Shown: piece after piece, positions 1,372 to 8,536 of the stretch
Position numbering within the stretch: position 1 is the stretch's first letter
How the letters are laid out: each line of letters starts with the position of its first letter
From: Actinophytocola xinjiangensis
GTDB lineage: Bacteria > Actinomycetota > Actinomycetes > Mycobacteriales > Pseudonocardiaceae
Direction: 5' to 3'
DNA length: 33,837 nucleotides
NCBI RefSeq assembly: GCF_001921215.1
Contig: NZ_MSIF01000046.1
Location: 1-33,837, forward strand
Notes under the pieces: generated by a model
Database searches by the model: none
What the model saw: the letters and a program-made list of their open reading frames with translations, nothing else
What the model was told of the DNA's origin: nothing
Translations under genes and position numbers: made by a program

Positions 1372-2280
1372 TCAGTGGAAGAAGTCGCGGATGGCCACCG
1401 CGAGACCCGCCGGGTCCAGGCCGTGTACCGCGTCGTGGTCGGTGGCCGTGCCGTACGCGCGCACCTCCCTGTCCCGGCTCACCCCCAACGACCGCAGCCG
1501 GTGCGGAACGTCGGCGAGCGTCTCGGACACCTGGTGCGCCGAGGTCCCCGCCAGATACGGCTCCACCAGCACGACCTCCGGCGTGGCGCCGGCCACCGCC
1601 GCCCGCAGCCCGGCGTGGTCGAACGGCCGCACCGTGCTCGCGTACAGCACCGAGACGTCCAGCCCGGCCGTCGCGGCCAGCACCCCGTCCAGCATCGGAC
1701 CGACCGCCAGCACCACGCCCCGGCTTCCCTTGCGCACCAAGGTGAACTCCCCGGTGGGCAACGCCGAGCCGTTCTCCCTCGCGGACAGTCGAAGGTAGAC
1801 CCGGCCGGAGCCGGCGAGCGCCGCGCGCAGCAGCGGCTCGACCTCGTCCGGGTGCCCAGGGACGTGCACGGTCCAGCCGGGCAGGGTGTCCAGCAGCGCC
1901 ACGTCACCGGGCGCCTGGTGGGTGCGCCCCCACACCGGGTCGTCGTAGGAACCGCCGATGCTGGCGAGCACCGCGCCGACGTCCTGGTGCCCGAGGTCCA
2001 GCTTGAGCTGCTCGAACGGCCGCTCGACGAGGAACGGCGTGTAGCTGTGCACCACCGGCCGCAGCCCGGTGAGCGCGAGACCGCCGGCGACACCGATCAT
2101 CGCCTGCTCGCGGATCCCGACGTTGATCACCCGGTCCGGGTGCCGCTCGCGCGCCGGGGCGAACGCGCCGGCGGAGATGTCGGCGGTGACGACGGCGATC
2201 CGGGGATCCTCGTCGAGGGCGGCGGACACGGTGTCGACGAACACCGTGCGCATGATCTTGTCGGTCTGCTGGGTGGTCAT
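1372..2280 (-). CDS. Transketolase-like protein, C-terminal (pyrimidine-binding) subunit
   Basis: 302 residues, the second half of a split thiamine-diphosphate transketolase. Residues ~10-170 are the pyrimidine-binding domain: INVGIREQAM contains the ThDP-activating glutamate (Glu58), followed by SYTPFLVERPFEQLKLD and GRTHQAPGDVALL. The rest is the transketolase C-terminal domain. It should act with the upstream N-subunit as an alpha2-beta2 enzyme moving two-carbon ketol units between sugar phosphates; the actual substrates cannot be read from sequence. The ATG at 2280 overlaps the upstream TGA by one base (TGATG), so the two are translationally coupled. A GTG at 2283 is an alternative start. 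The operon is driven from the SoxR-type promoter near 2968-2998. Confidence 0.88.
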   Translation of the reverse strand: MTTQQTDKIMRTVFVDTVSAALDEDPRIAVVTADISAGAFAPARERHPDRVINVGIREQAMIGVAGGLALTGLRPVVHSYTPFLVERPFEQLKLDLGHQDVGAVLASIGGSYDDPVWGRTHQAPGDVALLDTLPGWTVHVPGHPDEVEPLLRAALAGSGRVYLRLSARENGSALPTGEFTLVRKGSRGVVLAVGPMLDGVLAATAGLDVSVLYASTVRPFDHAGLRAAVAGATPEVVLVEPYLAGTSAHQVSETLADVPHRLRSLGVSRDREVRAYGTATDHDAVHGLDPAGLAVAIRDFFH

Positions 2281-2960
2281 CACAGCTCCTCGGCGTGGAT
2301 CGTGGCCACCACGACGGACGGGCGGCCTGGGTGGTGGGCGGTGAACGCCCGGTGCAGTGCGTCGTGGTCGCGGCCGTCGACGGTCGCGCTGTGCCAGCCC
2401 TCGACCTCGAACCGCCGGGCGATACCGCCCGGCCAGCCGTGGCTCGCCGAACCGTTGTCGATCGCGACGACCGTCAGCCGCTCCAGCCCGAGCCGCCCGG
2501 CCAGCGCGATGGCCTCGTGGTTGCTGCCCTCGTCGAGCTCACCGTCGCCGACCAGCACGACGACGCGGCTCTCGCGACGCTGCGCGCGCAGGCCGAGCGC
2601 GGTGCCGACCCCGAGACCGAGGCCGTGCCCGAGCGAGCCGGCGCCGATCTCCACGCCGGGGACGAGCACGCGGTCGGGGTGCTGGCCCAGCGGCGAGTCG
2701 AACGTGGTCCACGTGTCGAGCAGGTCCGGGTCGAGGAAACCCTTGGCGGCCAGAACGGCGTAGTAGGCCATCGGGCCGTGCCCCTTGGACAGCAGGAACC
2801 GGTCGCGGTCCGGGTCGTCGACGTTGTCGGGGCTGATGTTCAGGACGCGGTCGTAGAGCACCCACAGGACGTCCACAGTGGACGCGGCGGCCCAGGTGTG
2901 CTTCTCGTCGCCGGTCATGCGCTCGAACAGAGCGGCGAGGTCGTGTGTCGTTCGTGTCAT
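2280..2960 (-). CDS. Transketolase-like protein, N-terminal (ThDP/Mg-binding) subunit, shortened
   Basis: 226 residues. Visible motifs: SKGHG (59-62), IGAGSLGHGL (105-114) and the ThDP/Mg motif starting GDGELDEGSN at 138, closing at AIDNG (167-170). The start at 2960 is chosen over 3119 because the longer frame would run through the SoxR box and the divergent promoter; GGTGA precedes the ATG. The family is usually ~260-280 residues. This copy ends at VVVATIHAEEL, where relatives continue with a KTxKGxGV segment and a C-terminal helix, so the tail is missing or replaced. First gene of a two-gene operon, divergent from soxR. Confidence 0.87.
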   Translation of the reverse strand: MTRTTHDLAALFERMTGDEKHTWAAASTVDVLWVLYDRVLNISPDNVDDPDRDRFLLSKGHGPMAYYAVLAAKGFLDPDLLDTWTTFDSPLGQHPDRVLVPGVEIGAGSLGHGLGLGVGTALGLRAQRRESRVVVLVGDGELDEGSNHEAIALAGRLGLERLTVVAIDNGSASHGWPGGIARRFEVEGWHSATVDGRDHDALHRAFTAHHPGRPSVVVATIHAEEL

Positions 2961-2967
2961 GTCACCG

Positions 2968-2998
2968 AGCGTGCAACCTCGACTCCACTGGAGGTCAA
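2968..2998 (-). promoter_or_regulatory. SoxR box inside a 19-bp-spacer promoter for the transketolase operon
   Basis: On the minus strand -35 TTGACC (2993-2998), a 19-bp spacer and -10-like CACGCT (2968-2973). The 18-bp dyad CCTCCAGTGGAGTCGAGG (2977-2994) starts on the last two bases of the -35. E. coli soxS has the same geometry and its box is CCTCAAGTTAACTTGAGG; 13 of 18 positions agree. The over-long spacer is the hallmark of promoters that MerR-family activators untwist. The start site would fall within a few bases of the ATG at 2960. Confidence 0.75.
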
Positions 2999-3041
2999 GA
3001 AGTCGTTGGAGCAACTCCTCCACCTTTGTCCAGGTTTTCGG

Positions 3042-3047
3042 TAGGGT
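3042..3047 (+). promoter_or_regulatory. -10 box of soxR, leaderless type
   Basis: TAGGGT lies 7 nt before the GTG at 3055, so the mRNA should start at or next to the start codon. No good -35 is visible at 17-18 bp. A GGAG-CAA-CTCC dyad (3008-3018) lies just upstream. The SoxR box itself is about 50 bp away and does not overlap this promoter. Confidence 0.5.
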
Positions 3048-3054
3048 CGGTGAC

Positions 3055-3519
3055 GTGCCGAAACTGCCGGACATGCTGACGATCGGTGACGTGGCCAGGC
3101 GAAGTGGCGTTCCCCACACGGCGCTCCGCTTCTACGAGGAACGCGGCCTGATCGCGTCCGAACGAACCGTCGGCAACCAGCGGAAATACGCCCGAGCCGT
3201 CCTGCGCCGGCTGGCGTTCATCCGCACGGCGCAACGCGTCGGCCTCTCTTTGGAGGAGATCCGCGACGCGCTGAGCACCCTGCCCGAGGGCCGCACCCCC
3301 ACCAAGGCCGACTGGTCCCGCCTGTCCAACGTCTGGCGCCGCGAACTCGACGCGAGAATCGACGCGATGCAACGCCTGCGCGACCGCCTCACCGCCTGCA
3401 TCGGCTGCGGCTGCCTGTCCCTGAAGTCCTGCCACCTGATGAACAAGGACGACGTCCTGGCGGCGATGGGCCCGGGCGCTCCCCGCCTCCGCGCCTCCAC
3501 CGAGGGCGGCATCGTCTGA
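3055..3519 (+). CDS. soxR: Redox-sensing transcriptional activator SoxR
   Basis: 154 residues, MerR family. An N-terminal winged helix-turn-helix (LTIGDVARRSGV, residues 8-19; ALRFYEERGLI) is followed by a long dimer helix and a C-terminal iron-sulfur loop. The loop has C115-x2-C118-x-C120-x5-C126 in CIGCGCLSLKSC, the exact SoxR spacing for a [2Fe-2S] cluster, and separates this protein from other MerR members. GTG at 3055 (VPKLPDMLTIGD) aligns with the SoxR N-terminus; longer in-frame starts would cross the transketolase promoter. Known biology: outside enterics SoxR responds to redox-active secondary metabolites and controls few genes. The box in the divergent promoter names the transketolase pair as its likely target. 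The C-terminal codons run into a 15-bp tandem repeat that holds the stop codon. Confidence 0.95.
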   Translation: MPKLPDMLTIGDVARRSGVPHTALRFYEERGLIASERTVGNQRKYARAVLRRLAFIRTAQRVGLSLEEIRDALSTLPEGRTPTKADWSRLSNVWRRELDARIDAMQRLRDRLTACIGCGCLSLKSCHLMNKDDVLAAMGPGAPRLRASTEGGIV

Positions 3520-4070: not shown

Positions 4071-7086
<3,016 letters not shown>

Positions 7087-7273
7087 CGGCTTCCTCTGGA
7101 TCGTTCTGCCCGGGGTGTCCAGAGTAAGCCGTCGGGCCGTCAGCCGGTCGGCCCAGTACCTTCGTCGGTGATCAGCCGTGTGCGGTACGTGCCCGACCAT
7201 TGACGGGTTGTCACGACCGGACGGGAGCGCCAGGCTCGGCCACGCACTGGCCTCGTCGGGGAGGAACACACAC
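7087..7273. promoter_or_regulatory. Divergent promoter region, hisD / carboxypeptidase
   Basis: 187 bp without a credible ORF. On the minus strand TACTCT lies about 40 nt before hisD and could be its -10; no good -35 was found. On the plus strand TTGACG (7200-7205) is a good -35 for the carboxypeptidase, but no convincing -10 follows at 17-18 bp. GGGGAGG (about 7259-7265) is the carboxypeptidase ribosome site. No T-box or other riboswitch fold was recognised. Confidence 0.4.
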
Positions 7274-8536
7274 ATGTCGAGCACACGTCGTGCGCTGGCC
7301 ACGGTTGCCGCGGCCGCGTTGGTGCTGGCCACCGGATGGTCGGCCACCGCCCAGGAGAACACGCCACCACCCGATCGTGGGATCTATCAGGTGACCGGAG
7401 CCGACGACGCGCAGGCCAGGACCGAGGTCGCGCGCACCGGCGTCGACGTGCTCGGCGTGCGGGACGGGACCATGGAGGTCGTCGCCAGCCCCGCCCAGGC
7501 CAGGACCCTGCGCGACGCCGGCTACGCGCCCCGGCTGACCGGCGACTTCGACGCGGCGCTGGCCGCGCAGAGCAACGGGCCCGCCGCGGCCGACGACTTC
7601 CCCGCCGGCGACGAGGGCTACCACACCTACGACGAGATGGTCGCCGAAGTGCGGGCGGCGGCGGGCGACCACGCGGACATCACGTCGGTGTCCAGCATCG
7701 GCAGTTCGTTCGAAGGGCGGGACCTGCCGCTGGTGAAGATCAGCGACAACGTGGGGGTCGACGAGGACGAGCCCGAGGTGGTGTTCACGTGCAACATGCA
7801 CGCCCGGGAGCATCTGACGCTGGAGATGTGCCTGCGGATCGTCAACCGGTTCACCGACGGGTACGGGACCGACGAGACGGTCACCGGTTTCGTGGACGGG
7901 CGGGAGATCTGGGTGGTGCCGTCGTTGAACCCCGACGGGGCCGAGTTCGACATCTCCGGAGGCGAGTACCAGGGGTGGCGGAAGAATCGGCAGCCCAACT
8001 CCGACGGGTCCGTGGGGACCGACATCAACCGGAACTTCTCGTACAAGTGGGGATGTTGCGGTGGGGCCAGTGACTCACCGTCGGCCGAGACCTACCGGGG
8101 GCCGTCGGCCGGGTCCGCGCCGGAGGTCGCCTCGGCGCAGGAGTGGGTTTCCTCCCGGGTGATCGACGGGGAGCAGCAGATCACCGCGCACATCGACTTC
8201 CACTCGTTCTCGGAGTTGGTGTTGTGGCCGTTCGGGCACACCTACGACACGGTGACCGAGGGAATGACCCAGGAGGAGTACGACCGGTTCTCCTCCGTGG
8301 GGACCGAGATGGCTGACGCCAACGGGTACACGCCTGACCAGGCCAGTGGGTTGTACATCACCGACGGGGACATCAACGACTGGATGTGGGGGGAGCACAA
8401 GATCCTGAGCTTCTGTTTCGAGATGTATCCCTCAGGTGGTGGGCTGGACGGGTTCTACCCGCCCGACGAGGACATCGTCGAGCAGACCACCCGGAACGAC
8501 TCCGCCGTGGACGTTCTGTTGACCCACGCCGGGTGA
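7274..8536 (+). CDS. Secreted M14-family zinc carboxypeptidase
   Basis: 420 residues. Signal peptide 1-26 ([20 protein letters not shown], cleavage near ATAQE), pro-region ~27-112, catalytic domain ~115-415. Zinc ligands are His176 and Glu179 in NMHAREH and His310 in HIDFHSFSE. Substrate-carboxylate residues are Asn252/Arg253 in [11 protein letters not shown], and the general base is Glu383 in CFEMYP. This is the complete M14A set, so an active metallocarboxypeptidase of the Streptomyces/Thermoactinomyces extracellular type is expected, trimming C-terminal residues from peptides outside the cell. Cys260-Cys261 (GCCGG) may form disulfides with Cys173 or Cys381. The ATG at 7274 is preferred over 7178 because of the signal peptide and the GGGGAGGAA site. 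It faces an orphan peptide-binding lipoprotein tail to tail with a 22-bp gap. Confidence 0.95.

Follow-up and report, generated by a model that had tools for sequence, protein, structure and literature searches.

The 33,837-nt contig NZ_MSIF01000046.1 of Actinophytocola xinjiangensis (hereafter the window, i.e., the whole stretch of DNA that was analysed), part of a 9.5 Mb genome, carries a soxR gene that is transcribed divergently from two overlapping genes, tktA and tktB, encoding a split transketolase (Table 1). Judged by its sequence, the soxR product is a true SoxR: it scores 201.6 bits in a profile search with TIGR01950, whose cut-off is 116.9, its residues 2-145 of 154 align with the solved SoxR 2zhg (E 3e-42), and it contains the motif CIGCGCLSLKSC, i.e., the exact C-x2-C-x-C-x5-C spacing of the [2Fe-2S] pattern. 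This had been claimed in the original prediction, made from the DNA letters alone, together with a divergent two-subunit transketolase behind a soxS-like promoter. Both transketolase subunits are confirmed as well, although the interval given at the time (2280-3519) leaves out tktB. The tktB start codon overlaps the tktA stop codon (ATGA), and the Transketolase_C match of the tktB product falls slightly below the cut-off (23.8 versus 25.9). Neither subunit reaches the NCBIfam transketolase equivalog (130.1 and 80.3 versus 488 bits), a whole-length cut-off that split subunits fail regardless. A structure prediction of the tktB product from the single sequence had a pLDDT of 40.9 and was not used.

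Table 1. The soxR-tktAB region, in positions of the window.
Feature	Position	Strand	Remarks
soxR	3055-3519	+	154 aa; GTG start at 3055, in-frame ATG at 3073 possible
Degenerate SoxR-like dyad, CCTCCACCTTTGTCCAGG	3017-3034		adjoins soxR start; 10/18, counted by eye; candidate site
-35 element TTGACC	2993-2998	-	read from the sequence
SoxR box of the tktAB promoter, CCTCCAGTGGAGTCGAGG on the minus strand	2977-2994	-	13/18 versus soxS box
-10 element CACGCT	2968-2973	-	19-bp spacer from -35
tktA-like, thiamine-diphosphate (PP) subunit	2280-2960	-	226 aa; PF00456 (Transketolase_N) 99.7 bits
tktB-like, Pyr and C-terminal subunit	1372-2280	-	PF02779 (Transket_pyr) 104.9 bits

The tktAB promoter has the organization of a SoxR target, with the box lying between the -35 and -10 elements, in a 19-bp spacer, and starting on the last two bases of the -35 element. 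In E. coli, soxR is likewise divergent from its target, whose box also sits in a 19-bp spacer (PMC4411124), except that the target there is the activator soxS and here an enzyme operon. Both the spacing and the number of identities with the soxS box, printed as CCTCAAGTTAACTTGAGG (PMC4411124), are as originally predicted, and the box is the best 18-mer of the window in this comparison; two others reach 11 identities and none 12. Six of its nine dyad pairs match. A looser dyad pattern, with up to two mismatches, occurs at least once in 39 of 100 window shuffles, so that the dyad alone is unremarkable. A chance dyad, which the shuffles alone could not exclude, was rejected on the rank of the box among the 18-mers of the window and on its conservation in relatives, which is the reason why we count it as real. 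The position of the tktA ATG, at 2960, makes a nearly or fully leaderless tktAB transcript probable. On the other side of the intergenic region, the second dyad listed in Table 1 may be an autoregulatory site of soxR; it is clearer in the intergenic regions of five same-genus loci (L014, L015, L016, L020, and L065), e.g., as CCTCCACCAAGGTCGAGG in L020.

Conservation was assessed in a family sample, where tktA was found in 90 of 150 genomes (E <= 1e-40), in a class sample (53 of 394 genomes, E <= 1e-50), and in a set of named loci, the best 80 of 469, which partly overlaps the two unnamed sets. Each region, from 220 bp upstream of the tktA start to 45 bp inside the gene, was scored at the 14 fixed positions of TTGACCTCNANNNNNNTNGAGG. 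In the family, 90 of 92 matches were scored, the two others (46-47% identity), in which no box was found, being set aside as an outgroup; the 55 class matches gave 28 scored loci, with two fetched loci duplicating family loci and 25 matches without a scored locus. A box of at least 12/14 is present in 81 of the 90 family loci, 26 of the 28 class loci and 65 of the 80 named loci (leaving nine, two, and fifteen loci below this score), as compared to 0.06%, 0%, and 0.25% in shuffled sequence and 0.06%, 0%, and 0.06% in other windows of the same loci. One named locus, L172, reaches 11/14 through a match at -199 that we take for chance, and stands outside the 65. Among the 181 promoters that reach a score of 11 or higher, the -10 element reads xAxxxT (A 0.95, T 0.99) after a 19-bp spacer, at positions that do not enter the score, and the TTGAC of the -35 element, whose positions do, is almost invariant. 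L157, L159, L165, L166, and L167, five of the 25 class matches left out of these counts, score 14, 10, 11, 12, and 11, respectively.

The soxR-tkt pair, which the original prediction proposed to seek in relatives, recurs in part of these loci: 64 of the 90 family loci, 7 of the 28 class loci, and 26 of the 80 named loci have a soxR in divergent orientation at a distance of up to 800 bp. A strong SoxR match is found in 52 of 53 class genomes with tktA versus 172 of 341 without (Fisher p 4e-13), a test that ignores ancestry and on which we lean little. Outside this range, three Chloroflexota metagenome-assembled genomes (MAGs; L199, L209, and L251) combine a 12/14 box with a divergent soxR, a Myxococcaceae MAG (L181) has soxR and a box of only 9/14, and three further Chloroflexota copies (L205, L232, and L244) have boxes of 8-10 and no soxR match; these occurrences may reflect MAG binning errors. 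In L016 (genome G094), from the same genus, tktA has an in-frame TAG, yet soxR and a 13/14 box are present. Taken together, the comparative data make control of tktAB by SoxR close to certain.

SoxR boxes resemble the sites of other MerR-family regulators, and the box could thus serve one of these instead. Such a regulator would account for the lack of a soxR match in 54 of the named loci and of a strong SoxR match in one genome with a boxed tktA, G186, and a MerR-like gene was seen by eye in addition to the adjacent soxR in L161 and L166. However, when the 46 soxR-free unnamed loci (1.5-2 kb on each side, boxless loci included) were searched by tblastn with SoxR, none of them showed a different MerR-like gene, and neither did the soxR-free named loci, although a distant MerR protein could escape such a search. 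Moreover, the cysteine motif is intact in all 110 SoxR matches from tkt-family loci (some of which were fetched twice), and the same box precedes genes of the SoxR-target type. With the tblastn result and the universal cysteine motif against it, we regard this explanation as very improbable.

These other box-preceded genes form a candidate SoxR regulon. With at most one mismatch, the promoter-box pattern occurs at ten distinct places in the A. xinjiangensis genome (overlapping palindromic matches being counted once); with up to two mismatches, it gives 85 rows versus 18 for the reversed control pattern. Seven of the nine places other than tktAB (L043, L045-L048, L050, and L051) directly precede a gene, encoding two NmrA/NAD-binding proteins, an ABC transporter, two zinc-binding dehydrogenases, which by eye are of the quinone-oxidoreductase type, an arylamine N-acetyltransferase, and a major facilitator superfamily transporter; of the remaining two, L052 has no gene called and L053 is inside a called gene. 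A tblastn search with SoxR, covering 3 kb at each of these nine places, yielded no MerR-like gene. In Streptomyces coelicolor, SoxR targets include a quinone oxidoreductase, an oxidoreductase, an NAD-dependent epimerase, an ABC transporter, a monooxygenase, and a flavoprotein reductase (PMC4146615). The predicted regulon matches this list in part, by protein class and not by orthology, the common ground being the box, oxidoreductases, the NAD-binding epimerase type, and an ABC transporter.

A boxed putative transketolase is also shared with Streptomyces. The original prediction knew of no split transketolase among described SoxR targets, which has to be amended, since a conserved SoxR site is listed for S. 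avermitilis SAV_1623, a 'putative transketolase', in footnote c of Table 4 of a 2014 study (PMC4146615); that site is itself a prediction. No link to Rif15 is drawn in the parts of that study consulted, SAV_1623 was absent from the other open-licence literature searched, and nothing in that literature brings together SoxR, transketolase, and rifamycin. A transketolase with a SoxR box upstream therefore has a precedent, and what is new is the identity of the enzyme, i.e., its place in the Rif15 clade.

Phylogeny firmly identifies the window enzyme as a Rif15-type two-subunit transketolase. Its A subunit is 68-73% identical to five Rif15a-type proteins and its B subunit 68-71.5% identical to five Rif15b-type proteins; the comparison rests on these five pairs, and the Amycolatopsis mediterranei protein is not knowingly among the rows. 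By contrast, the best PDB match of the tktA product, the split transketolase of Carboxydothermus hydrogenoformans (6yak, 6yaj), whose N and C components are also encoded apart, is distant (E 4e-34 for A) and has an N component of 309 aa versus 226 in the window.

Four boxless copies (L026, L041, L064, and L124) have neighbours that look like genes for rifamycin tailoring, among them, between the four loci, a P450, a methyltransferase, a type II dehydroquinate dehydratase, a thioesterase, and an FAD enzyme, which we take to correspond to genes with Rif names. When one neighbour protein per locus was run against NCBIfam, the dehydratase exceeded its cut-off and the others gave general matches only. 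A fifth rifamycin-type copy, L172, which has thioesterase and P450 genes nearby, is from Amycolatopsis vancoresmycina, for which a rifamycin-congener cluster has been described; rif15A/15B usually lie at the border of clusters of this kind (PMC6175910). In trees of the A plus B proteins (L016 dropped, the two 46-47% family matches as outgroup), the five rows of rifamycin type group together as a single clade, which falls within a supported 17-row group including the window in FastTree (199 rows) and has 100/100 support in IQ-TREE (79 rows). In the latter, this clade is sister to the boxed copies L027 and L030 (11 and 12 of 14; 100/96), and is joined with five rows of the window's genus in a 13-row set (100/91), itself within an 18-row set (98/97). 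Boxless and nested in a mostly boxed tree, the rifamycin-type copies are most simply read as descendants of boxed ancestors that lost the box. Two genomes carry both kinds of copy: G141 (L041 and the soxR-linked, boxed L114) and G244, whose soxR-linked L159 has a weaker box (10/14). G109 and the incomplete G011 have a single tktA copy each.

The activity of Rif15 is known, to our knowledge from the A. mediterranei enzyme only. With thiamine diphosphate (ThDP) and Mg2+, Rif15a and Rif15b convert rifamycin S to rifamycin L by placing a C2 keto fragment on its C-4 carbonyl; the donor is a ketose, with xylulose-5-phosphate (Xu5P) the best, and the hydroquinone rifamycin SV, when kept reduced, is no substrate (PMC6002545). 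Rif15 resembles the window pair in its two overlapping genes, its clade, its kept catalytic positions, and its replaced H461, D469, and R520; it differs in that its genes belong to a rifamycin-type cluster. Its five relatives compared here have no box and W at the S385 position, and the window copy has soxR and the box.

Whether such an enzyme could still serve the pentose-phosphate pathway can be judged from its active site. Positions were located by motif and are given in E. coli transketolase numbering. The catalytic machinery is preserved: the ThDP/metal motif is intact (equivalents of D155 and N185 in 197/197 rows each), as are E411 (196/196), H473 (197/197), H26 (194/195), H66 (196/197), and R358 (195/196). 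At the acceptor side, in contrast, H461 is replaced in 196/196 rows (G or A in 189), D469 in 197/197 (E in 11), R520 in 196/196, and S385 in 189/196, with D in 110 and the serine kept in 7. The window reads G, G, W, and A at S385, H461, D469, and R520, and so lacks the set of a sugar-phosphate acceptor site, which the full-length transketolase encoded separately in the same genome, without a box, retains in full (S, H, D, and R in the alignment). The PP domain of TktA is also truncated relative to that protein, its C-terminal portion with the GKAHG loop being absent. In E. coli transketolase, S385 touches the substrate phosphate, and the triple change S385Y/D469T/R520Q was evolved to shift the enzyme from phosphorylated to aromatic aldehydes (PMC5073344). 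The replacements seen here speak against a plain pentose-phosphate role and would fit a bulky or aromatic acceptor, without proving a quinone.

An ordinary transketolase, induced by SoxR to raise sugar-phosphate recycling and NADPH under redox stress, was one of the two purposes suggested in the original prediction. The intact transketolase domains and ThDP/metal motifs agree with it, as does the range of donors accepted by Rif15, i.e., Xu5P, fructose-6-phosphate, ribulose-5-phosphate, sedoheptulose-7-phosphate, and dihydroxyacetone (PMC6002545). Nonetheless, the lost acceptor positions and GKAHG loop, the boxless full-length enzyme already at hand, and the known activity of the clade toward a quinone make this purpose improbable. 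The other purpose, a special substrate, is favoured, the nearest characterised relative found being Rif15, which acts on a quinone. This substrate might be one of the small toxic aldehydes of redox stress (glyoxal, methylglyoxal, or formaldehyde), for which the loss of positions contacting acceptor hydroxyls or phosphate would also be suitable. However, reading 15 neighbourhoods by eye, without a profile search of them, revealed no connection to aldehyde metabolism, and Rif15, the only characterised relative found, uses a bulky quinone; we consider this alternative unlikely.

In our preferred reading, soxR and tktAB make up one regulatory unit of divergent genes, in which oxidised SoxR, bound between the -35 and -10 elements of tktAB, in the 19-bp spacer, would induce a Rif15-type, ThDP-dependent ketol transferase. 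The enzyme would take a C2 ketol from a sugar phosphate such as Xu5P and pass it to a carbonyl of a redox-cycling quinone; the ring would be rearomatised, leaving a hydroquinone mono-ester that cycles no further. We put the probability of this whole mechanism at roughly 55%. Its starting points, namely the identity of SoxR, the box and promoter, the Rif15 clade, the kept and replaced positions, and the candidate regulon, are read directly in the sequences, from which SoxR binding and induction are predicted. We infer a quinone as the physiological acceptor from the one characterised relative, the class of SoxR inducers, the altered residues on the acceptor side, and the other members of the candidate regulon.

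Several points weigh against this reading. The box consensus was written after the loci had been inspected, which is why the shuffles and the other windows of the same loci matter. The boxed tktA of G186 (L125, L163) comes without a strong SoxR match in that genome, possibly due to an assembly gap in a 470-contig draft. Acceptor pockets vary within the family: S385 is W in 5/5 Rif15-type rows and G in the window, besides the D found in most rows, while Rif15-type rows have W (4) or R (1) at D469 and E (4) or D (1) at R520. Since Rif15 of A. mediterranei is slow (kcat 0.022 per min; PMC6002545), the ancestral enzyme may have had a substrate unlike rifamycin S, and quinone use may have arisen in the rifamycin branch only. 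In Salinispora, the two-subunit transketolase genes were reportedly needed for any production of rifamycin and saliniketal, which suggests an aminosugar function; supply of 3-amino-5-hydroxybenzoic acid (AHBA) is reported as an alternative role there (PMC4551226). Finally, no natural-product cluster was recognised by eye around the boxless or low-scoring copies L173, L184, L205 (where no gene was called), and L244.

A further possibility is that TktAB, instead of being a general detoxifier, is a tailoring or precursor enzyme for a secondary metabolite that the strain itself makes, and is induced when this redox-active product accumulates. Two-subunit transketolases have indeed been reported for the supply of AHBA or of C2 units, and some boxless relatives are found in rifamycin-type and YcaO-containing clusters. 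Boxed copies, by contrast, occur in housekeeping settings, such as beside his genes in several relatives (by eye), and the presence of tktA in 90 of 150 family genomes is too widespread for a single pathway, so that this role appears quite unlikely. As for the YcaO-type genes, they lie close to boxless or low-scoring copies in L150 and L188 (Streptantibioticus silvisoli; by eye) and beside the boxless split transketolase of L156 (G292), where the neighbouring gene matches TIGR00702; L156 and L188 represent a possible further recruitment into a natural-product cluster.

More tentatively, and with odds that we place somewhat below even, the capping of quinones would be a standard arm of the SoxR regulon in Actinomycetota, with outliers in Chloroflexota and Myxococcaceae MAGs: redox-active quinones would oxidise SoxR and thereby bring about the induction of the enzyme that esterifies them with a ketol. 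Rifamycin producers would have recruited the enzyme and dropped its box, giving rise to Rif15. If true, this rifamycin step would trace back to a stress enzyme that a cluster took over and that lost its SoxR box, and ketol-transfer conjugation would join the known ways of disarming quinones. The enzymes induced by SoxR in antibiotic producers are thought to process redox-active metabolites (PMC4146615); here, a widely conserved SoxR target stands beside an enzyme of known quinone chemistry, which makes its substrate directly testable.

With regard to the surroundings of soxR-tktAB, no single conserved third partner emerged from the neighbourhoods, whose genes were read by eye, and no rifamycin genes were recognised by eye across the 33.8 kb of the window, where the neighbours read as his genes and others. 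Genes read by eye as hisB, hisC, and hisD adjoin the unit in the window (4071-7362, minus strand), and hisH/hisA/hisF-like genes, also named by eye, are found on the other side in several relatives (L158, L161, and L169-L171). In L167 (G459), soxR-tktAB is near genes resembling, by eye, those of protocatechuate dioxygenase subunits and of an aromatic-ring hydroxylase. At the contig end, positions 1-300 of the window consist of a low-complexity CCGCCACCG-type repeat within an open reading frame.

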